A stretch of DNA of 34,958 nucleotides, taken from contig JANWKI010000075.1 in assembly GCA_025451455.1 (NCBI GenBank), positions 1-34,958 of the forward strand. Direction: 5' to 3'. The stretch is from Ignavibacteria bacterium. Lineage in GTDB: Bacteria; Bacteroidota; Ignavibacteria; Tepidaquicellales; OLB5. The notes under the pieces were generated by a model. It saw only the letters and a program-made list of their open reading frames with translations. It was not told the origin of the DNA and searched no databases. Within the stretch, counting starts at the first letter, position 1. Each line of letters starts with the position of its first letter. The translations under genes were made by a program, and so were the position numbers. Below are positions 3,088 through 27,746 of the stretch, in pieces.

Positions 3088-5193
3088 TCAGCTCAATCTT
3101 ATTCTTGCATCAAGTATCCTGCATTTTTCTTCTTCATCAAAAAACACAAAAGGATTGAGGTCAATTTCTTTGAATACCGGGAAATCTTCGGATAATTGTG
3201 AAAGCCGCAGCAGGTTTTCTTTTATAAAATCGATATTCACTGATTGCCTGCCCCGGGCACCAGTCAGCATTTTGTAGCTTTTTATTGATCTAATCATCCT
3301 CGATGCTTCTTCATCGTTGATAGGCACTAATTTGAAATTTACATCCTTAAATACCTCAACGAAGATGCCTCCAAGCCCGAACATTATCATATGCCCGGCT
3401 TTTTCATCCTTTGTTATTCCCAATATGGTCTCAATTCCTCCTGCTATATAGGGCTGTATTATGTATTTCTCAAATTCCTCTGTTAACTTTTTTGTTTTCA
3501 GGTTTTCATTAATTCTGCCAATTGCTTTTTTTAATTCAACCTCTGTATGAATATCTATTTCAACGCCGCCAATATCAGACTTATGGACCAGATTTTTTCC
3601 GGCAGCCTTAATGACAACCGGGTATTTCAACTTTGCAGCTGCCTCAACAACTCCATCTGTGTCATTAGCCGTGTAAGAGATTACCAGAGGCATTCCATAA
3701 GCATGCAGTATCCTGTAAACATCATCATATTCAAGATAAATTCCGGGTTTGCTGTGATATTTTCTCAGAATTTTTCTAACGGTATCTTTTTTTGCATCAA
3801 ATTTTATATACCTTCCTTCCGGATGCTCTTTCCATTTTTTGTATTCAAACATCTTTGCAATAACTCTTGCTGCATCCTCAGGGAAACGGAAAATAGGGGG
3901 ATATACTGTGATAATATCTTTCAGCTTAGGTATGATGTCATCCTGTGACATTAAAACCAGCATTACCGTTTTATCCGAGTCCTTAACAGCATCACAAATG
4001 GAACGCGCTATCTCAAGAGTATCCAGCATTAACGGGGGACCCAGAATTACGATAAGCGAATCAATATTTTTGTCACTTAACATCAATCGTGCTGCCTTTG
4101 CATACATATCTGAGTCAGCCGGAGGAAGAAGGTCAACAGGGTTGAATACCGATGCTTCGGCAGGTGCAAATGAGCGGAGTTTTTCCTGTGTTCCTGAGGT
4201 CAATTCGGGGATAGCCATGTTATTATTTGCGCATTCATCAACTGCTAGAATTGCCGGACCGCCGGCATTTGTTAAGATCCCAACCCGGTTTCCTTTAGGA
4301 AGGCTGGTTTTGTCAAATCCCTTTGCAAGATCAAACATATCGTTGATAGAATTGACTCTGATAACCCCGCTTTGCTCCAAAAATGCATCAACTACAGCAT
4401 CTGAACCGGCAAGAGCCCCGGTATGAGATGAAGCAGCTTTCATTCCGGCAGAGGTCCGTGCAGATTTGATGACTATCACAGGTTTGGTTTTTGTAATTTC
4501 TCTTGTTAATTCCATAAACATTCTCGGATTCCCAAAAGACTCAAGATAAACAGTAATAACCTTGATATCGTCATTGTTTTTCCAGTATTCAAGAACTGTA
4601 TTTCCTGAAACATCTGCCTTATTGCCTATACTGATAAACTGTGCCATACCAATATCGTTCTGCTGAACGGTCTTGAGAACAGCTGCACCAAGGGCACCGC
4701 TTTGTGAAATGAATCCAATCCCTCCATTCAGAGGAGTTCCGGCAACAAAGGTGCAATTGAGCCTGACGTTTGGGTTAGTGTTAATAATACCCATACAATT
4801 TGGCCCGACAAGCCTCATACTGTATTTATTGATCTTTTCGGTAAGTTTTTTCTCGATCTCAGATCCTGCTTTACCGGTTTCCTTAAATCCTGCAGTTATT
4901 ACTACAACTGAAGTGATTTTCTTCATTGCGCAATCATCGATTGTTCTGAGCACCAGTTCTCTGGGAACCATAATTACCGCAAGATCTATTTTATCATCTA
5001 TATCGATTGCAGACTTGTATGATTTTATACTGTGAACAGAATCTGCTTTTGGATTTACTGGGAAAATCTTGCCCTTATAACCATATCTGATAAGATTACT
5101 TATAAGTTCATAACTTAGAGCCCCTTCTCTGGAGGATGCACCTATGACGGCGATTGACTTAGGGTAAAATATGTTGTTCATTGGGATTTGCAT
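3088..5193 (-). CDS. ADP-forming acyl-CoA (acetate-CoA) ligase, fused alpha-beta subunits
   Basis: 701 residues. Order: CoA-binding Rossmann domain (about 5-135, VIGASSREG near residue 17), two succinyl-CoA-ligase-like flavodoxin domains (about 150-455), ATP-grasp domain (about 485-700). SSHTGALAG holds His257, matching the phosphohistidine of archaeal ACD alpha subunits; HKSDIGG at 537-543 fits the second phospho-histidine site of the beta part; Glu218 lies in VYLESF. The enzyme converts acyl-CoA + ADP + Pi to acid + ATP. The length ends with the ATP-grasp part, so there is no C-terminal GNAT domain, which argues against a Pat-type protein acetyltransferase. It follows the HMA gene by 38 nt and may be read through from it. 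With PFOR and the 2-oxoacid oxidoreductase in this window it would make ATP from 2-oxoacids. Acetate versus branched-chain or aryl preference cannot be read from sequence. Confidence 0.9.
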   Translation of the reverse strand: MQIPMNNIFYPKSIAVIGASSREGALSYELISNLIRYGYKGKIFPVNPKADSVHSIKSYKSAIDIDDKIDLAVIMVPRELVLRTIDDCAMKKITSVVVITAGFKETGKAGSEIEKKLTEKINKYSMRLVGPNCMGIINTNPNVRLNCTFVAGTPLNGGIGFISQSGALGAAVLKTVQQNDIGMAQFISIGNKADVSGNTVLEYWKNNDDIKVITVYLESFGNPRMFMELTREITKTKPVIVIKSARTSAGMKAASSHTGALAGSDAVVDAFLEQSGVIRVNSINDMFDLAKGFDKTSLPKGNRVGILTNAGGPAILAVDECANNNMAIPELTSGTQEKLRSFAPAEASVFNPVDLLPPADSDMYAKAARLMLSDKNIDSLIVILGPPLMLDTLEIARSICDAVKDSDKTVMLVLMSQDDIIPKLKDIITVYPPIFRFPEDAARVIAKMFEYKKWKEHPEGRYIKFDAKKDTVRKILRKYHSKPGIYLEYDDVYRILHAYGMPLVISYTANDTDGVVEAAAKLKYPVVIKAAGKNLVHKSDIGGVEIDIHTEVELKKAIGRINENLKTKKLTEEFEKYIIQPYIAGGIETILGITKDEKAGHMIMFGLGGIFVEVFKDVNFKLVPINDEEASRMIRSIKSYKMLTGARGRQSVNIDFIKENLLRLSQLSEDFPVFKEIDLNPFVFFDEEEKCRILDARIRLS

Positions 5194-5231: not shown

Positions 5232-5531
5232 TTAATCCATCAAAACAGCATCATATCCGGCTTCAATAACTGCATTTAAAATCGACTGAGTGTCAGTCGT
5301 TGAATCATCAAATTCTACTGTTATTATTTTTGATTCAAGATTAATATCCAGTTTTGCGATGCCTTTTAATGTGTTTATCGATTTTGTAATGCTTCTTTTG
5401 CAGCCATCGCAGGTCATTTCAGTGCATTTGATCTTGATGGTTTTTTCAGCATACGAACTTCTGGCTTTGATATTTGGAAACATTCCGTTCATGAGGAAGA
5501 AAAGTATAATTAATATTAATGTAGTTTTCAT
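5232..5531 (-). CDS. Secreted heavy-metal-associated (HMA) domain protein
   Basis: 99 residues. Signal peptide at 1-24 (LILIILFFLMNGMF), then a single HMA fold (about 31-99) with the metal-binding M-T-C41-D-G-C44 loop and the usual ending VIEAGYDAVL. HMA domains bind soft metals such as Cu(I) or Hg(II) through the two cysteines and hand them to a partner. Most bacterial stand-alone HMA chaperones are cytoplasmic (CopZ); the signal peptide places this one in the periplasm, like MerP. It starts 12 nt after the barrel gene at 5544-6509, so the two are surely cotranscribed. Together with the YtkA-like lipoprotein upstream it suggests an envelope metal-handling unit. The metal is not identifiable from sequence. 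Confidence 0.85.
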   Translation of the reverse strand: MKTTLILIILFFLMNGMFPNIKARSSYAEKTIKIKCTEMTCDGCKRSITKSINTLKGIAKLDINLESKIITVEFDDSTTDTQSILNAVIEAGYDAVLMD

Positions 5532-5543
5532 ATTGTTTATTTC

Positions 5544-6509
5544 TTATTTTAAATTCAAATCAGAGAAATAATAAGTAAAGAACAGGTTAAAGGTTGTTGA
5601 ACCAGGTACATTTTTCCCAAAGTTATCATTGGGAATACCCATTTTGACCGAGGTTGTTATCCTAAAAGGAATAGATGGATAATATGTATAAGATAATACG
5701 AAATTTGTCGATTTTTCCTGTGAATTTACACCCGGTACATTATTGATTTCATAAGAACTTTGTGAAAATCCGGAAGCGGTCAGAGTAATGGCATGCCAGC
5801 TGTTGAAAATATAGTTGACGGCCAGTGAATAATTGAACTTATCACCCGGCTGTTTAATGTAATCTGAATTTAACGGGATTCCAAACATCGACTTATAGTT
5901 TTTCTCAAAGCTGTGCTGCCAGCTGAAATCAAAGATAAATTGAAGTCTTGATTTTACAATACTTTTAATTACAGATAAGCCAAGAGAGCTCATGTAAAAC
6001 CCTTTTCCTGTTATATCAACACCATTTAGAGCGGTTTCTTCAGATACTCCTGTTGGTACTGACATGCCAAAAGTCAAAGCAGTATAAGGCAGTTTCGTAT
6101 CCAATGAGAGTTTTTTACCCTTTTTCTTAGGCTGGAACTCATGTGTAAATTCGTACCTCCCCCCAAGTATCAGATCTCCAATCCCCGAGCCGGTTTGTTT
6201 CAATCCCGGAATATTGCTCCTGTTGCTTATGAATGGAAGCGCAATTGCAAACTGCAGATGCCTGCTTATCCTGTAGGCTGAGTTAAGAACAGTCTTAATT
6301 TGAGACTGGGAATAATCATTGCTTCTCCACTTTCCGTTTTGATCCCAAACCCCGTTATATTTGTCAAAAGTGAAACCCAAATTGATCAAAGCTGTTCCGT
6401 CAAGTGATAGAACTGCAAGATCACTTGTGCCGCCTCCGCAACTGTTGCATGTAAATATTTCCGCAGCTTTGAAAAGAAAGATGATCGTAATAATAATTCG
6501 GGTTTTCAA
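5544..6509 (-). CDS. Outer-membrane beta-barrel protein with N-terminal CxxC (transporter-like)
   Basis: 321 residues. A signal peptide (about 1-19) is followed directly by C21-x2-C24-GGG, then alternating amphipathic strands through to a C-terminal TFNLFFTYYFSDL strand, the look of an outer-membrane barrel. Runs such as LGFTFDKYNG, GIGDLILGGRYEF and LTFGMSVPTG recall the MetA-pathway/transporter-like barrel family. The start is TTG at 6509, supported by AGAGG about 10 nt upstream; it overlaps nothing but follows the lipoprotein stop by 1 nt, indicating translational coupling. The two cysteines right after the signal peptide are not part of a good lipobox and could be a metal site at the periplasmic face, in line with the HMA gene downstream. 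Export or import direction is unknown. Confidence 0.7.
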   Translation of the reverse strand: MKTRIIITIIFLFKAAEIFTCNSCGGGTSDLAVLSLDGTALINLGFTFDKYNGVWDQNGKWRSNDYSQSQIKTVLNSAYRISRHLQFAIALPFISNRSNIPGLKQTGSGIGDLILGGRYEFTHEFQPKKKGKKLSLDTKLPYTALTFGMSVPTGVSEETALNGVDITGKGFYMSSLGLSVIKSIVKSRLQFIFDFSWQHSFEKNYKSMFGIPLNSDYIKQPGDKFNYSLAVNYIFNSWHAITLTASGFSQSSYEINNVPGVNSQEKSTNFVLSYTYYPSIPFRITTSVKMGIPNDNFGKNVPGSTTFNLFFTYYFSDLNLK

Positions 6510-6510
6510 A

Positions 6511-7326
6511 TTAATTTACCTCTAATATGAACTTTGGTGGTGGAGTCCCTGTTATGAATGAATTATTTACCTTTATTGAATCATACAAAAACCACTGGCC
6601 CGCCATTGTGAAATTTGCTGTGCCGCTGTACTTGCCGCCTCCATTGCCAGTAGGGTTTATATTATTGCCTGATCCGTGGCCCATTGCCTCCATCCAAGGT
6701 CTGATAAACATCTCAGCAGACTCTATTTCACTATATGTTTGCATATCAGCTGTCTCATGCAGCATCATATCAACTGTATTCAATCCGACTCTTGCTGCCC
6801 GGGGATTAATCAGTGTAAGAACGTATTCTCTTTGTGTAACTGAATTATTCCATATGAACAACTGACTCCGGCTTTCGGGGAATAATTGAATTATTGAAGA
6901 ATCTACTTGAACAAGAGTATTGTAACTGAAATTTGCTGCCCAGAATGCTGCAGTATCGTACATAGTAAAAATTGCATACCCTGTGAACAAGCTGTTTTGT
7001 GTATCATAAAGAAACATATCTTCAACAGGAATGGAATGGCGTTGTCCTCCAATTCCATGGTACATAGTTGGTAAAAACTTCACAAAACCAGAGTTCTGCT
7101 CTGCACCATTGAGGAAAACCTTAAAGCCAATATTATTATATCCATATAAGAAATTCGAAGCTGTAGAACTCCAAACTTCGAACTTATTTCCATTTGACTC
7201 GGCGGTATGAATTTTGACGTAGTTTCCTGTCTGTGGGTCTTCAATTGAGGAGGGTGAATCCGAATTACAGCCGAAAATAAGAGTCAGCACGGCGCAAAAA
7301 ATTGAGAAAACTATGATTTTTTTCAT
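6511..7326 (-). CDS. Lipoprotein with two YtkA-like domains, putative metal binding
   Basis: 271 residues. Lipobox LIFGC with Cys20 as the lipidated residue; the following acceptor residues (Asn-Ser-Asp) suit an envelope lipoprotein. The body looks like two copies of a YtkA/FixH-like beta-sandwich: M88-Y-H90-G followed by a Pro and GYAIFTMYDTAAFWA, and again M215-G-H217-G followed by Pro225, KYSGTANFTMAGQW. The shared M-x-H-G, the Pro, the Gly-Tyr and the Met...Trp strand are what I see; YtkA-like domains are frequent in copper-related loci, so Met/His metal binding is an inference. First gene of a three-gene unit (1 nt to the barrel, 12 nt further to the HMA gene). A TATAATTG -7-like box and a perfect 12-bp palindrome lie upstream. 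Confidence 0.7.
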   Translation of the reverse strand: MKKIIVFSIFCAVLTLIFGCNSDSPSSIEDPQTGNYVKIHTAESNGNKFEVWSSTASNFLYGYNNIGFKVFLNGAEQNSGFVKFLPTMYHGIGGQRHSIPVEDMFLYDTQNSLFTGYAIFTMYDTAAFWAANFSYNTLVQVDSSIIQLFPESRSQLFIWNNSVTQREYVLTLINPRAARVGLNTVDMMLHETADMQTYSEIESAEMFIRPWMEAMGHGSGNNINPTGNGGGKYSGTANFTMAGQWFLYDSIKVNNSFITGTPPPKFILEVN

Positions 7327-7348: not shown

Positions 7349-7391
7349 CAATTATAGTAAAATCCGCATTCAGGTCACATGACTTAAGTCA
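7349..7391 (-). promoter_or_regulatory. Putative promoter and palindromic operator of the lipoprotein/barrel/HMA operon
   Basis: On the minus strand TATAATTG (7349-7356) matches the phylum's TAnnTTTG -7 element at seven of eight positions, 23 nt before the lipoprotein ATG. Upstream, TGACTTAAGTCA at 7380-7391 is a perfect 12-bp palindrome, and a third TGAC half-site follows 2 bp later on the minus strand. Position about 25-35 bp upstream of the -7 box fits a regulator site. The regulator is unknown. Confidence 0.4.
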
Positions 7392-7500
7392 AATTACCAT
7401 TGCAGAAAATCAAGATAGTTAACTCAACATAAAGCATTTAAAAACAAAAACTGCTGATAATAAGAGAAATAACTGCATGCAACTCCCATGATAACTAACC

Positions 7501-12908: not shown

Positions 12909-13249
12909 AAATCCTCCTGATTTAAATTAAATATTGCAAAACATAATGATTTCAAACAATCATTGCAATTGAAATTGGATACACAAAAAAATTTTAATTG
13001 AAAAGTGTTTCTTCCATTTGACCGAAATAAATTTAAGAAAATTGTTAATAGTTGTAACAGTTTTTTTCAAACTGTAAAATTCAGTGAAAAAGAATCCTTT
13101 TTTGTGACACATTTACCATAAATTATTGTAAATAGTAGATTTGCTTTAGTTTGGAACGAAATATTTCTGGACTTGTTTAAATAAACAAGTCAGGGAAGAT
13201 ACTGACTAAAATGATTCTTAAAAATTTCTTCAAAAAGGAGAAAATCAAT
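12909..13249. other. AT-rich divergent intergenic region
   Basis: It separates the T9SS substrate (minus) from the Gly-Tyr-Asp repeat gene (plus). It holds the 20-bp palindrome at 13171-13190 and a possible plus-strand promoter: TAGATTTG at 13136-13143, matching TAnnTTTG, with TTTA at 13112-13115 (20-bp spacer) as an imperfect -33. No coding frame is convincing. Confidence 0.5.
13171..13190. promoter_or_regulatory. Perfect 9-bp inverted repeat in the leader of the Gly-Tyr-Asp repeat gene
   Basis: ACTTGTTTA-AA-TAAACAAGT is a perfect inverted repeat with a 2-bp centre. The centre is too short for a good hairpin and there is no T tract, so a dimeric regulator site is more likely than a terminator. 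It lies about 45 nt upstream of the Shine-Dalgarno at 13235-13240. Confidence 0.45.
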
Positions 13250-13765
13250 ATGATTAAAAAAATTTTATCAATATCAGTATTCTCACTATTCCTCTATTTT
13301 GTTGTTTCAAATACTTCATATTCTCAGGAAGCACCAACGCCAACAATAAAAATTGAAGTACCAATTCCAGAATTTCCAGTTGTAATTGGTGATGCAGGAT
13401 ACGATAAGGAAGGATATGATAAAGAAGGCTACGATAGAGAGGGTTACAATAGAGAAGGATATAACCGTTCAGGTTATGACAGAAATGGTCGTGATGAAAA
13501 GGGGTTCGATAGAAATGGTTTTGACATATACGGTTACGACTATAACGGCTATGACACAAAGGGATATGACAGAAGCGGATATGACAGAAATGGTTACGAT
13601 AGAAATGGAAATTACAGGAACAGCACTGGCCAAAATTATGAAAAAGAGAAAAGTAAAGTAAAACATGATAACGGAAAACATAAAGGATGGTACAAGAATA
13701 AAAATAAAGACAAAGACCATGAAGAAAATGAGGACAGAAGCAAACATGACCGTGACGACGATTAA
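13250..13765 (+). CDS. Secreted Gly-Tyr-Asp pentapeptide-repeat protein with charged tail
   Basis: 171 residues from the ATG at 13250, chosen because AAGGAG sits 9 nt upstream and a signal peptide (residues 1-26, ending TSYSQ) starts there; the frame opens 13 codons earlier without such support. After a Pro-rich linker (27-48), residues 50-119 are fourteen tandem pentads of G-[Y/F/R]-[D/N]-x-x (GYDKE, GYDRE, GYNRS, GFDRN and so on), coded by a 15-bp DNA repeat at 13397-13606. The last 45 residues are almost only Lys, Asp, Glu, His, Asn. This differs from the A(D/N)LxX pentapeptide-repeat fold. The regular Asp/Asn and Gly could bind Ca2+ or form an extended elastic chain; that is inference. 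Flanked by its own leader palindrome and a terminator, so monocistronic. Confidence 0.8.
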   Translation: MIKKILSISVFSLFLYFVVSNTSYSQEAPTPTIKIEVPIPEFPVVIGDAGYDKEGYDKEGYDREGYNREGYNRSGYDRNGRDEKGFDRNGFDIYGYDYNGYDTKGYDRSGYDRNGYDRNGNYRNSTGQNYEKEKSKVKHDNGKHKGWYKNKNKDKDHEENEDRSKHDRDDD

Positions 13766-23246: not shown

Positions 23247-26200
23247 ATGAGAACAAAGTTATTTGATAGCTCACTTTTAAGTACAGCAAAAGGAGCTTTG
23301 GATTTCATTGGTAATATACTTGAATCCTCGACTGAATATTCAATTATTGGTATGGATCTAAACGGAAAGGTGCTGCTTTGGAATGAGGGAGCCAGGCGTT
23401 TGTATGGTTATGAGCCGGAAGAAATAATCGGCAGGAAAAACTCTGAAATACTCTATGTGCCTGAAGATATAGAATCCGGAAGACCTTCCCGGATCTTGAA
23501 AGATGCAATAAAGAACGGGAAGTGGGAAGGCACAATTCAAAGAATGCGCAAGAACAGGGAAGTCTTTACTGCGCGGGTTGTTGTAAATGTACGGAAAGAT
23601 TCCGATGATAACCCGATCGGGTTTTTGCTTATCTCAAAGGATATCTCTGATGATATACGTTTATCGGATGAGATTAAAGCAACTCAAACTTACACAAGGT
23701 CCCTTATAGAATCCAACAGTGATGCCTTAATGCTTACAGATGCTCTTGGAATAATCAGTGATGCAAACAGGCAAATGGAGCTGCTGACAGGATTTACTCG
23801 AAGTGAACTAATAGGCACACCATTTAAAGAATATTTCTCGAATCCAAAACGCGCAGAAGAAGGGATCAAGCTCGTATTAATACAGGGCAGGGTAACAAAT
23901 TATGAACTAACTGCACTTTCAAAAGACGGACGCAAGACCCTTGTATCTTATAACGCTTCAACTTTTGTTGATTCCAATGGTAAACTGAAAGGAGTAATAG
24001 CTGCAGCCCGTGATATTACTGACCAGAAAAAGCTGGAGGAGCAGTTGAGGGAATCACATGCCTATAACAGGGGCCTTATCGAAGCCTCCGTTGACGGACT
24101 CATAACGGTAGATTCGTCAAGCCTAATAAGCGACGTGAATGCCAGGATGTGCCAGATGACCGGATATTCCAGAGAAGAACTTATCGGCACACCATTCTCA
24201 GATTATTTTGAAGATACCGATAGAGCCGAATCAGGCGTTAAGGAAACATTCGTAAAAGGAATAGTTACAGATTATGTATTAACCCTTGCAACACGGGACA
24301 GGAAAAAATTAAAAGTATCATTCAATGCCTCAGTGTTCCGCAACCCTGCAGGTGATATCAAAGGGATTTTCGCAAGCGCGCGTGATATTACAGAGCAATC
24401 CAAGCTGCAGGCTCTCTTATCCGAAGAAAGAGCATATAACCGCGGTCTTATTGAAGCCTCTCTTGACGGACTTATAACTGTCGACGCAATGCTGACAATT
24501 ACAGACGTTAATGAAACTATGTGCCGGATGTCCGGATATACACGGTCAGAGTTAATGGGCACATCATTTGAGAAATACTTTACAAATCCCAAATATGCTG
24601 CTGAAGGTGTCAGACTGACGCTTGATAAAGGAGCTGTAACAAATTATGAGCTTACTCTCAGGACGAAAGCAGGCTTTGAGCGGCTGGTATCGTTTAACGC
24701 TGCTATTTTTAAGGATGAAACCGGAGAAGTAAAAGGGATTTTCGCCAGCGCGCGAGATATCACCGAGCAGGCGCAGCTGCAGAACCAGCTTGCCAATGAA
24801 AGAACTTATAACAGGGGACTTATCGAGGCTTCAGTTGACGGACTGGTTACAGTTGATGAGTCCATGAAAATAACAGATGTAAATGAAACGATGTGCGGGA
24901 TGGTAGGCAGAAGGCGCAACCAGCTGATCGGGTCGCAGTTCCCCCAGTATTTTGTTGAAAGTGAACGCGCGGCTGAAGGTGTGAGGCTGACCTTTAAAGA
25001 AAGCTCTGTGACAAACTATGTATTAACCCTGCTTTCTGCTGACGGCAGGCAAATACCGGTTTCATTCAATGCCGCTATTTTCAAAGATAAAGCAGGAGAT
25101 GTCAGGGGAATCTTCGCTTCTGCACGTGATGTTACTGCTCAAAAAACTCTGGAAGAAAAGCTGCAGGCTTCGCAGATATATACACGTTCGCTTATTGATT
25201 CGAACATCGATGCTTTGATGACAACCGATTCATTGGGAAATATTTCAGATATTAATCAGCAGACTGAATTTCTTACAGGTTATTCACGTGATGAGCTTAT
25301 AGGTACTGCGTTCAAGGATTTTTACACCGATCCTGAGAAAGCTAATAAAGCAATCCAGGAAGTGTTAAGAGAAGGTAAAGTAACAAACTACGAGCTTACA
25401 GTAAGAAGCAAAGACGGAAAAGAAACGGTAGTGTCTTATAATGCGACGACATTCTATGACAGGGAAGGTAAGCTTCAGGGTGTGTTTGCTGCTGCGCGAG
25501 ATGTAACAGAGCAGAAAACCCTTGAGCAGCAGCTTCGTGAACAGCAGTCTTATAACAGGGGCCTTATCGAATCCTCAGTGGATGGCCTGATAACAGTTGA
25601 CCAGAACGGTATTATTACAGATCTGAATGACAGGATGTGCCAGATGACAGGTTACTCAAGGTCTGAACTTATAGGTACACCGTTTGCAGATTATTTCACT
25701 GATTCAGAAAATGCCCGAAAAGGCGTTCAGTTAACCCTCGAAAACGGTTTCGTTACCGAGTACGCCCTGACTTTGATCGCACGAACCAGAAGGCAGCTCC
25801 AGGTTTCTTTTAATGCCTCAATATTTAAAGATCCATCAGGTGAAATCAGAGGAATATTTGCTTCTGCTCGTGATATTACTGACCGCGTGAGACTCGAAGA
25901 GCAGCTAAGGGAACAGCAGACGTATCTTCGCGGTCTTATTGAATCTTCAGTTGATGGTCTGATCACGGTTGATCCCGAAGGTTTTATTACCGATATTAAC
26001 GAACAGATGTGCAGGATGACTGGTTATTTGAGAGAGGACTTAATAGGGTCTCCTTTCAAAAAATATTTCACTGATTCTGACAGCGCAGAGATCGGTGTAA
26101 AAAGTACACTTGCAAAAGGAGTTGTTACAAACTATGAACTCGTTTTAAAGACAAGGACGGGGCGCAAAGCAACGGTATCATTTAATGCCTCAATATTTCG

Positions 26201-27746
26201 CGGGGCAGATGACAGTGTTCAGGGTATCTTTGCTTCTGCCCGTGATATTTCTGAGCAGGCAAGGCTGCAATTCCAGCTGAGTGAGCAGCAGGCATATAAC
26301 CGTTCACTAATTGAAGCCTCTGCGGATGCCCTGTTTGCAGTTGCTCCAGACGGTACTATCACTGACGTAAATGAAGAAGCTACCCGTATTACAGGTTACT
26401 CAAGAAAACATTTAATTAATTCAAAGTTTTCTGAATATTTTACGGAGCCTGAACGCGCAAGGGAGGGTGTCGAAAAAACACTTAAAGAAAGCAGGGTGCT
26501 GGGTTATGAGCTGATCCTAAAAACACGCCAGGGCAGAAGAATAACAGTGAGCTTTAACGCGGGTATCTTTACAGATGCCGCAGGACTGCCTCTTGGTGTG
26601 CTTGCAGGTGCGCGTGATATTACAGAACAGAAAAATCTGGAGCAGCAGCTCAGGTATCAGCAATTCTATACACGGTCGCTTATTGAATCAAATATTGATG
26701 CACTTATGACTACTGATCCGCTTGGAATTATTACTGATATAAACCAGCAGATGGAAAGTCTGACCGGGTACACAAGAGAAGACCTGATTGGAACGCCTTT
26801 TAAAAGCTATTTTACCAATCCGGATCATGCTGAACAGGGCATTAAGCAGGTACTTGAAAACGGAAAGGTTACAAATTATGAATTAATAGCACAGCATAAG
26901 AACGGGAAAAGAACAGTTGTCTCTTATAACGCGACTACCTTTTATGATAAGGAAGATCAGCTACAGGGTGTATTTGCAGCAGCACGTGATGTTACAGAAA
27001 GAAAGCAGTTCGAAGAGAGCCTGCAGGAAGCAAACAGAATGAAAAGCGAATTCCTTGCGAATATGTCGCACGAGCTGCGCACTCCGCTTAACGGGATAAT
27101 CGGATTTTCTGAGTTAATGATCGATGGCAAAGCAGGTGCGCTTGCTCCCAAGCAAAGTGAATATCTGAATGATATTCATAACAGCGGCAGACATTTACTT
27201 CAGCTCATAAATGATGTTTTGGATCTTGCTAAGGTGGAATCAGGCAAAATGGAAATGTACCCGGAAAGATTTTCGGTTAAGAAATCGATTGAAGAAGTTA
27301 CAAATGTAGTTTCGCCACTTGCAAAAAACAAGAATATTTCGATAAATATTGATGTACCCAAAGACCTGAAATATGTGAAGGTTGATAAACAGAAATTCAA
27401 GCAGATACTCTATAATTTAATGTCTAATTCCGTTAAGTTTACAAATGACGGGGGGAATATAAGTATCAGCGGCCAACTTTGTGATGATAATCAGTTCAGT
27501 ATCAGGGTAACTGATACGGGTATCGGGATCAGAAAAGAGGATCTTTCGAAGCTGTTCTATGAATTTCAGCAGATAGATTCAGGTCTTGCAAGAAAATACC
27601 AGGGAACCGGTCTCGGGCTGGCTCTGACAAAGAAGATAATTGAATTCCAGAACGGGAAAGTGGAAGTTGAAAGCGAATACGGTAAAGGAAGCACATTTAC
27701 ATTTTTTCTGCCGACCGAAATGGAGGTCGAAGGGATGGCTGCATAA
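23247..27746 (+). CDS. Soluble multi-PAS sensor histidine kinase (ten PAS domains)
   Basis: 1499 residues without signal peptide or membrane span, so cytoplasmic. PAS1 is about 18-145. Then nine PAS units start at residues 149, 273, 397, 521, 645, 769, 893, 1017 and 1141, each exactly 124 residues, ending at 1264. HisKA follows with phosphoacceptor His1275 in NMSHELRTPLNGIIGFSEL; the HATPase has N1390/N1394 (NLMSNSVKFT), DTGIGI (1423-1428) and GTGLGLAL (1453-1460). Two unit types alternate: A (TRSLI...DALM, VSYNA, AAARD; units at 149, 645, 1141) and B (NRGLIE...DGLITVD, VSFNA, ASARD; the others), giving A-BBB-A-BBB-A. Partner is the receiver gene, whose ATG follows the stop codon directly. 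Ligand or signal unknown. Confidence 0.95.
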   Translation: MRTKLFDSSLLSTAKGALDFIGNILESSTEYSIIGMDLNGKVLLWNEGARRLYGYEPEEIIGRKNSEILYVPEDIESGRPSRILKDAIKNGKWEGTIQRMRKNREVFTARVVVNVRKDSDDNPIGFLLISKDISDDIRLSDEIKATQTYTRSLIESNSDALMLTDALGIISDANRQMELLTGFTRSELIGTPFKEYFSNPKRAEEGIKLVLIQGRVTNYELTALSKDGRKTLVSYNASTFVDSNGKLKGVIAAARDITDQKKLEEQLRESHAYNRGLIEASVDGLITVDSSSLISDVNARMCQMTGYSREELIGTPFSDYFEDTDRAESGVKETFVKGIVTDYVLTLATRDRKKLKVSFNASVFRNPAGDIKGIFASARDITEQSKLQALLSEERAYNRGLIEASLDGLITVDAMLTITDVNETMCRMSGYTRSELMGTSFEKYFTNPKYAAEGVRLTLDKGAVTNYELTLRTKAGFERLVSFNAAIFKDETGEVKGIFASARDITEQAQLQNQLANERTYNRGLIEASVDGLVTVDESMKITDVNETMCGMVGRRRNQLIGSQFPQYFVESERAAEGVRLTFKESSVTNYVLTLLSADGRQIPVSFNAAIFKDKAGDVRGIFASARDVTAQKTLEEKLQASQIYTRSLIDSNIDALMTTDSLGNISDINQQTEFLTGYSRDELIGTAFKDFYTDPEKANKAIQEVLREGKVTNYELTVRSKDGKETVVSYNATTFYDREGKLQGVFAAARDVTEQKTLEQQLREQQSYNRGLIESSVDGLITVDQNGIITDLNDRMCQMTGYSRSELIGTPFADYFTDSENARKGVQLTLENGFVTEYALTLIARTRRQLQVSFNASIFKDPSGEIRGIFASARDITDRVRLEEQLREQQTYLRGLIESSVDGLITVDPEGFITDINEQMCRMTGYLREDLIGSPFKKYFTDSDSAEIGVKSTLAKGVVTNYELVLKTRTGRKATVSFNASIFRGADDSVQGIFASARDISEQARLQFQLSEQQAYNRSLIEASADALFAVAPDGTITDVNEEATRITGYSRKHLINSKFSEYFTEPERAREGVEKTLKESRVLGYELILKTRQGRRITVSFNAGIFTDAAGLPLGVLAGARDITEQKNLEQQLRYQQFYTRSLIESNIDALMTTDPLGIITDINQQMESLTGYTREDLIGTPFKSYFTNPDHAEQGIKQVLENGKVTNYELIAQHKNGKRTVVSYNATTFYDKEDQLQGVFAAARDVTERKQFEESLQEANRMKSEFLANMSHELRTPLNGIIGFSELMIDGKAGALAPKQSEYLNDIHNSGRHLLQLINDVLDLAKVESGKMEMYPERFSVKKSIEEVTNVVSPLAKNKNISINIDVPKDLKYVKVDKQKFKQILYNLMSNSVKFTNDGGNISISGQLCDDNQFSIRVTDTGIGIRKEDLSKLFYEFQQIDSGLARKYQGTGLGLALTKKIIEFQNGKVEVESEYGKGSTFTFFLPTEMEVEGMAA
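23691..27038 (+). repeat. Nine tandem 372-bp coding repeats (PAS array)
   Basis: Nine in-frame units of exactly 372 bp without any indel, inside the kinase gene. A higher-order unit of four (1488 bp) is visible: 23691-25178 and 25179-26666 both read A-B-B-B, and 26667-27038 is a further A unit. The two later A units (starting 25179 and 26667) are closest to each other, sharing stretches such as SNIDALMTTD and VVSYNATTFYD. Confidence 0.9.

Follow-up and report, generated by a model that had tools for sequence, protein, structure and literature searches.

A conserved lipoprotein-barrel-HMA operon of Ignavibacteria that shares its operator with nosZ, a candidate for copper supply to nitrous oxide reductase

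Introduction

Nitrous oxide is a greenhouse gas, and to our knowledge its only known biological sink is the reductase NosZ, which carries the copper centers CuA and CuZ and depends on copper for its activity. Copper is supplied across the outer membrane by OprC/NosA proteins, NosA being linked to NosZ (PMC8610252, PMC7558416), and a review suggests that alternative copper routes exist where NosA is absent (PMC7558416). In Bacillus subtilis, CtaK (YtkA) is a lipoprotein that serves CuA assembly and loses its function upon mutation of His118 (PMC9145763, PMC13344008). Known YtkA proteins help to supply copper when it is scarce (PMC9145763), and the family has been studied in Bacillus alone, with no experimental work on other YtkA domains (PMC12362106). 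It is not settled by which route clade II N2O reducers outside Proteobacteria obtain copper, and the locus described here bears on this question. It lies on contig 75 of a draft Ignavibacteria genome (2.3 Mb, 64% complete), within a stretch of 34,958 nt that was analyzed as a whole and is referred to below as the window.

Results

Organization of the locus

The first-pass annotation of the window had described three tightly packed genes, separated by gaps of 1 and 12 nt, for a lipoprotein of YtkA-like look with two M-x-H-G repeats, an outer-membrane barrel with C-x2-C after its signal peptide, and an HMA domain with a signal peptide. The coordinates, order, and strand of these genes were all as claimed (cf. 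Table 1). The CoA-ligase gene that follows them is a possible fourth cotranscribed gene, whose function is probably unconnected to the trio; it is kept downstream of the trio across the same genus and in G013, and is not found there in G014. No efflux pump or copper-responsive regulator is encoded within the operon, and no mer genes are present in the window. Elsewhere, the window encodes a secreted protein with tandem GYD(R/K)(N/E)GYDR-like repeats (13211-13765) and a sensor-kinase-like protein of very large size (~1500 aa; 23247-27746) in which similar PAS-like repeats occur many times.

Table 1. Positions of the trio, its promoter elements and the adjoining gene in the window
Feature	Position	Strand	Remarks
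Trio (lipoprotein, barrel, HMA)	5232-7326	minus	gaps 1 nt and 12 nt
CRP/FNR-type operator TTGACTTAAGTCA	7380..7392	(-)	12-bp perfect palindrome 7380-7391, centre 7385.5
-10/-7 element TATAAT(TG), hexamer TATAAT	7351..7356	(-)	putative transcription start ~7344
Lipoprotein with YtkA/CtaK-like C-terminal lobe, predicted as two beta-sandwich lobes in tandem	6511..7326	(-)	PF13115, AF2, conservation
~12-stranded outer-membrane barrel, FapF/COG4313 (Phenol_MetA_deg) type, N-terminal CNSC, TTG start	5544..6509	(-)	AF2, fold search, profile
HMA domain with TCDGC site, secreted (signal peptide visible in sequence)	5232..5531	(-)	PF00403, profile, invariant residues
ADP-forming CoA-ligase, 38 nt 3' of HMA gene	3088..5193	(-)	PF13549/PF13607

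Protein families of the trio

An HMM search placed residues 165-247 of the lipoprotein in the YtkA family (PF13115; 39 bits, Pfam cut-off 25.9), which bears out its YtkA-like look, and the same match was obtained for all 17 aligned lipoprotein sequences. The lipobox-type signal LIFGC ends in Cys20, which is present in every one of them. From the strands of the AlphaFold2 model (mean pLDDT 87.9) we read two tandem beta-sandwich lobes, as predicted structure; a fold search of the PDB returned generic Ig-like matches only (TM ~0.2). Both M-x-H-G repeats are there (MYHG 88-91 and MGHG 215-218), and other His and Met positions are better conserved. M88 of lobe 1 is found in 16/17 sequences, and H90 and H97 in 15/17, while H190, M212, and H217 of lobe 2 are invariant (17/17). 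Judging from the sequences, these invariant residues of lobe 2 are presumed copper ligands.

The barrel (321 aa) was modeled with a mean pLDDT of 74.7 and a disordered N-terminus. The best matches of the model in a fold search were FapF and COG4313 (TM ~0.8 of target), and the profile of the barrel family matched FapF at 1.7e-9. No Pfam match was obtained for the window protein itself, and PF13557 (Phenol_MetA_deg) is matched by 10 of the 17 members of its family; no match to a TonB receptor or plug family was found in the barrel. We know of no FapF/COG4313 barrel that acts as a metal channel. Amyloid secretion, the role of FapF, was set aside as a function, since the likeness is a match of fold only; no fapA-F operon genes were recognized beside the barrel in the window, where its neighbors are the trio and metabolic genes. 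The CNSC directly after the signal peptide, as annotated, contains the sole two cysteines of the window protein. The CxxC spacing does not hold throughout, since sister-family barrels have QxCC at this position, so that what stays constant is a pair of cysteines with GG after it. In two distant genomes of the same phylum (L108 and L109), barrels with an N-terminal CxxCGC adjoin di-haem CCP_MauG genes, and that of L108 has MbnP as a further neighbor, a hint that small Cys-tipped barrels have a broader role with copper.

The third protein combines a signal peptide visible in its sequence with an HMA domain, as first described (PF00403; 49.9 bits, cut-off 24.8). Its CxxC is intact in 13/13 aligned sequences, in which Met39 is also invariant, and a profile search related it to the N-domains of copper ATPases and to MerP. 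The protein scores below the cut-offs of both the MerP model TIGR02052 (47.2 bits versus 92.55) and the NCBIfam CopZ models (57 bits at best versus 85-95), and CopZ is a cytosolic protein, whereas the signal peptide would direct the trio protein out of the cytosol. A mercury operon was rejected on the MerP score and the absence of an adjoining merT. In G006 (L034:1512-1778) and G009 (L039:5391-5633), the trio promoter is closely preceded by a second HMA gene, the product of which has no signal peptide.

Conservation and distribution of the trio

Other members of the same genus and family of Ignavibacteria have the lipoprotein, barrel, and HMA genes in this order too, which rules out chance adjacency of the genes; beyond the family, only the lipoprotein and the barrel stay together, in seven genomes of a sister family of the order that have no adjacent HMA gene. 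With the protein families correct and the trio conserved, two of the three grounds on which the first-pass annotation would have given up its own reading fall away. Within the genus, the trio is flanked by 2-oxoacid:ferredoxin oxidoreductase genes and the ADP-forming CoA-ligase gene; G014 has other neighbors there, and G004 differs on one side. Lipoproteins of the family are ~60% identical to that of the window. The barrel family is rare, with 18 loci among 84,980 species, and a scan of 396 genomes of the phylum gave 3 strong and 6 weak cases; its named carriers are Ignavibacteria or assemblies labeled Ignavibacteriae, Chlorobi, or Bacteroidetes.

One genome of the family, G002 (99% complete), keeps nosZ and has lost the lipoprotein and the barrel, which are therefore dispensable there. 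What remains at this locus (L072:6526-6768) is the trio promoter and the HMA core, an 80-aa protein whose signal peptide is lost as well. Exactly at the point of this truncation, the HMA genes of six relatives have an internal ATG (MTLT), so that two translation starts, giving periplasmic and cytosolic forms, are conceivable.

Distant relatives of the lipoprotein (profile comparison 99.9%) head analogous clusters, in which they are preceded by a small Cys-rich protein and followed either by a CDLCGC barrel (then by HMA in two genomes) or by a TonB receptor, for which the best NCBIfam match is TonB-copper, below cut-off. The CDLCGC barrels and those of the trio type form two families that are only weakly alike (89%). 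In view of these clusters, a lipoprotein with an outer-membrane protein, with or without HMA, is a recurring theme in the order. The small protein upstream of the divergent YtkA lipoproteins (L070:6274-6645 and relatives) has an N-terminal hydrophobic stretch, the conserved pattern CEKK...CNA(K/C)CY, and a terminal PP, and matched no Pfam or NCBIfam family apart from one chance-level match.

The trio promoter and the operator shared with nosZ

The promoter, which the first-pass annotation had missed, carries the main new information. A TTGA[CT]-N4-[AG]TCA site was found within 200 bp upstream in 15/15 trio loci of the family (including G002, where the operator now directly precedes the HMA gene), compared with 1/102 control genes of the same loci and 0.6% of shuffles. 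If transcription starts 7 nt downstream of TATAAT, the center of the operator falls at -41.5, which is the class II position of CRP/FNR proteins, and the dyad found there is of the TTGA-N6-TCAA type, with a right half-site that ends in T. The [AT]TTGT of the -10/-7 element keeps a constant offset from the dyad center in 14/15 trio loci and in 12/12 ric-nosZ promoters. A search of G000 with the general pattern TTGACNNNNGTCA gave 11 matches genome-wide versus 26 for the reversed control, i.e., no enrichment, and our argument is built on the specific TTGACTTA(N)GTCA form alone, taken together with its fixed spacing. The operator was absent from the six promoters of sister-family lipoprotein-barrel pairs that were examined.

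The same palindrome, with identical spacing, lies upstream of ric-nosZ in all 12 promoters compared. The nos operon has the order ric-(cytochrome c)-nosZ-nosLDFY, and in all 13 family genomes with full-length nosZ the palindrome precedes ric, ~1.4-1.7 kb upstream of nosZ. G006, in which the contig ends just after ric, was not counted as lacking nosZ. In most family genomes, the ric-nosZ palindrome adjoins a gene for a CRP/FNR protein with the motif ETxSR, which we take to be its recognition helix, and without the FNR-type N-terminal Cys cluster; this protein (L114:7332-8039) may be the regulator. Further sites precede nrfHA and its porins, a narG-like molybdopterin gene in G009, and several other genes, for a methyltransferase and secreted proteins, a set that looks like a nitrogen-oxide or anaerobic regulon. 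In several genomes, the palindrome was also seen beside a UbiE-like methyltransferase or small lipoprotein gene (G012:C9:11259 [L119], L122, L132, L135, and L137).

In the sister family, the lipoprotein is present in 11/13 genomes with nosZ versus 5/16 without it (p = 0.008, or 0.026 with genera collapsed, which removes shared ancestry only partly). The barrel alone does not track nosZ there (p = 0.67), and a family-wide barrel-nosZ link was dropped. The lipoprotein-barrel pair of G023 adjoins norB, nosL, and nos-like genes in a nos/nor cluster, <10 kb from nosZ, and G025, G035, and G036 have the pair and no nosZ.

Discussion

The three protein families, their conservation as a trio, and a CRP/FNR-type operator that is common to ric-nosZ in both sequence and spacing are computed results. 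Through the shared operator, what looked like three metal-related genes gains a specific and testable connection with N2O respiration, and co-regulation with nosZ both supports the copper link and makes it more specific. The first-pass reading of a metal relay between outer membrane and periplasm is thereby borne out in part, the relay as such being a hypothesis. We favor, with a probability of roughly 0.55, the reading that these three genes form an operon for supplying copper to periplasmic copper enzymes of anaerobic respiration, chiefly clade II (Sec-type) NosZ. The CRP/FNR protein encoded beside nosZ would switch the trio on under anaerobic or nitrogen-oxide conditions. Copper would cross the outer membrane through the barrel, the N-terminal Cys pair of which might be the first ligand on the periplasmic side; the membrane-anchored YtkA lipoprotein would take it up on Met/His sites and hand it to CuA-type sites, thus doing the job done elsewhere by PCuAC or CtaK, and the periplasmic HMA protein could act as a soluble Cu(I) shuttle or buffer. 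Here we infer the identity of the metal, the direction of transport through the barrel, and the order of the partners. None of the 44 genomes of the order that were examined has PCuAC. A narrower proposal, that the FapF-like CNSC barrel, the two-lobed YtkA lipoprotein, and the secreted HMA protein form a TonB-independent route for copper from the outer membrane to the periplasm, which is co-induced with clade II nosZ and metallates NosZ in Ignavibacteria devoid of PCuAC, is tentative and, as a whole, somewhat doubtful.

Cu(I) becomes more toxic without oxygen, and the trio could instead be an anaerobic copper defence, switched on together with nitrogen-oxide respiration, in which the HMA protein and the lipoprotein scavenge periplasmic Cu(I) and the barrel lets it out. 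Since nrfHA and narG, which are not copper genes, belong to the regulon as well, co-regulation fits any anaerobic role, and the operator evidence suits such a defence too; the HMA protein resembles binders of the MerP/CopZ type, and G035 encodes a CusB-HMA fusion ~6 kb from its lipoprotein-barrel pair. We nevertheless consider defence unlikely, given an operon with neither an efflux pump nor a copper-responsive regulator, the function of known YtkA proteins at low copper (PMC9145763), and the presence of CopA and CusA systems elsewhere in these genomes. Every one of the 59 genomes searched had CopA-family ATPases, and most of the genus, the window genome among them (C137 and C61), had CusA-type RND pumps, so that the earlier statement that the system does without a P-type ATPase or CusCBA is true of the operon and not of the genome.

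Another recipient of the copper is rather improbable in our view, namely, the cbb3 and aa3 oxidases in place of NosZ, with all these genes co-regulated as one low-oxygen program. CtaK does act on oxidase CuA, COX2 occurs in 50/59 relatives, and in G000 an operator-like TTGACTCAAGTCA stands upstream of a CcoI-type ATPase gene, followed by cbb3 ccoN. However, the ccoI site was seen in only three of the loci examined, being weaker in G008 and G009, whereas the site at nosZ occurs throughout the family; moreover, cbb3 oxidases have no CuA, and G029 and G036 have the pair with no COX2 found. The least probable reading that we weighed makes copper a false lead and assumes that the trio handles another metal (Hg, Ag, or Zn) or that the CNSC barrel serves in redox or thiol chemistry. 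It draws on the about equal, subthreshold scores of the HMA protein with the MerP and CopZ models and on a barrel family with no known metal substrate, and has against it the lack of mer genes in the window, the co-regulation of the trio with a copper enzyme, the copper precedent of YtkA, and the CCP_MauG and MbnP neighbors of the distant CxxCGC barrels.

The first-pass annotation was aware of no described system of this make-up, and we found no description of this gene make-up or of the operator sequence in the literature searched either; as far as that literature shows, the component families are known, and their combination, its restriction to this lineage, and the control shared with nosZ are undescribed. 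The operator shared with nosZ suggests a previously undescribed copper supply to the N2O-destroying enzyme in Ignavibacteria. As for the HMA protein, MerP and CopZ likewise have a single HMA domain with an MTCxxC-type site, but it has no MerT or CopA beside it and stays below both cut-offs. The barrel shares its fold and a weak sequence homology with FapF/COG4313 (Phenol_MetA_deg, PF13557), yet FapF secretes amyloid, whereas the trio barrel has the CNSC N-terminus and no such genes nearby. NosA and OprC are, like the barrel, outer-membrane proteins proposed to feed copper to NosZ and expressed anaerobically (PMC8610252, PMC7558416); they are TonB-dependent receptors with a CxxxM-HxM site, whereas the trio barrel is about half their size, has the FapF/COG4313 fold and an N-terminal Cys pair, and lacks a TonB-type plug. 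Sco and PCuAC in CuA assembly and NosL for CuZ resemble the trio in delivering periplasmic copper to CuA or NosZ; NosL is encoded in the nos operons of this family, and YtkA belongs to a family different from PCuAC, which the order examined lacks. The lipoprotein resembles CtaK and the YtkA domain of YcnJ of B. subtilis, with a membrane-anchored YtkA lipoprotein and conserved His/Met residues (PMC13344008, PMC9145763). In contrast to these, the trio lipoprotein is Gram-negative and two-lobed, is encoded together with an outer-membrane barrel and a secreted HMA protein, stands under CRP/FNR-type control common to nosZ, and owes its link to a CuA enzyme to this co-regulation. The trio would give the YtkA family its first Gram-negative context.
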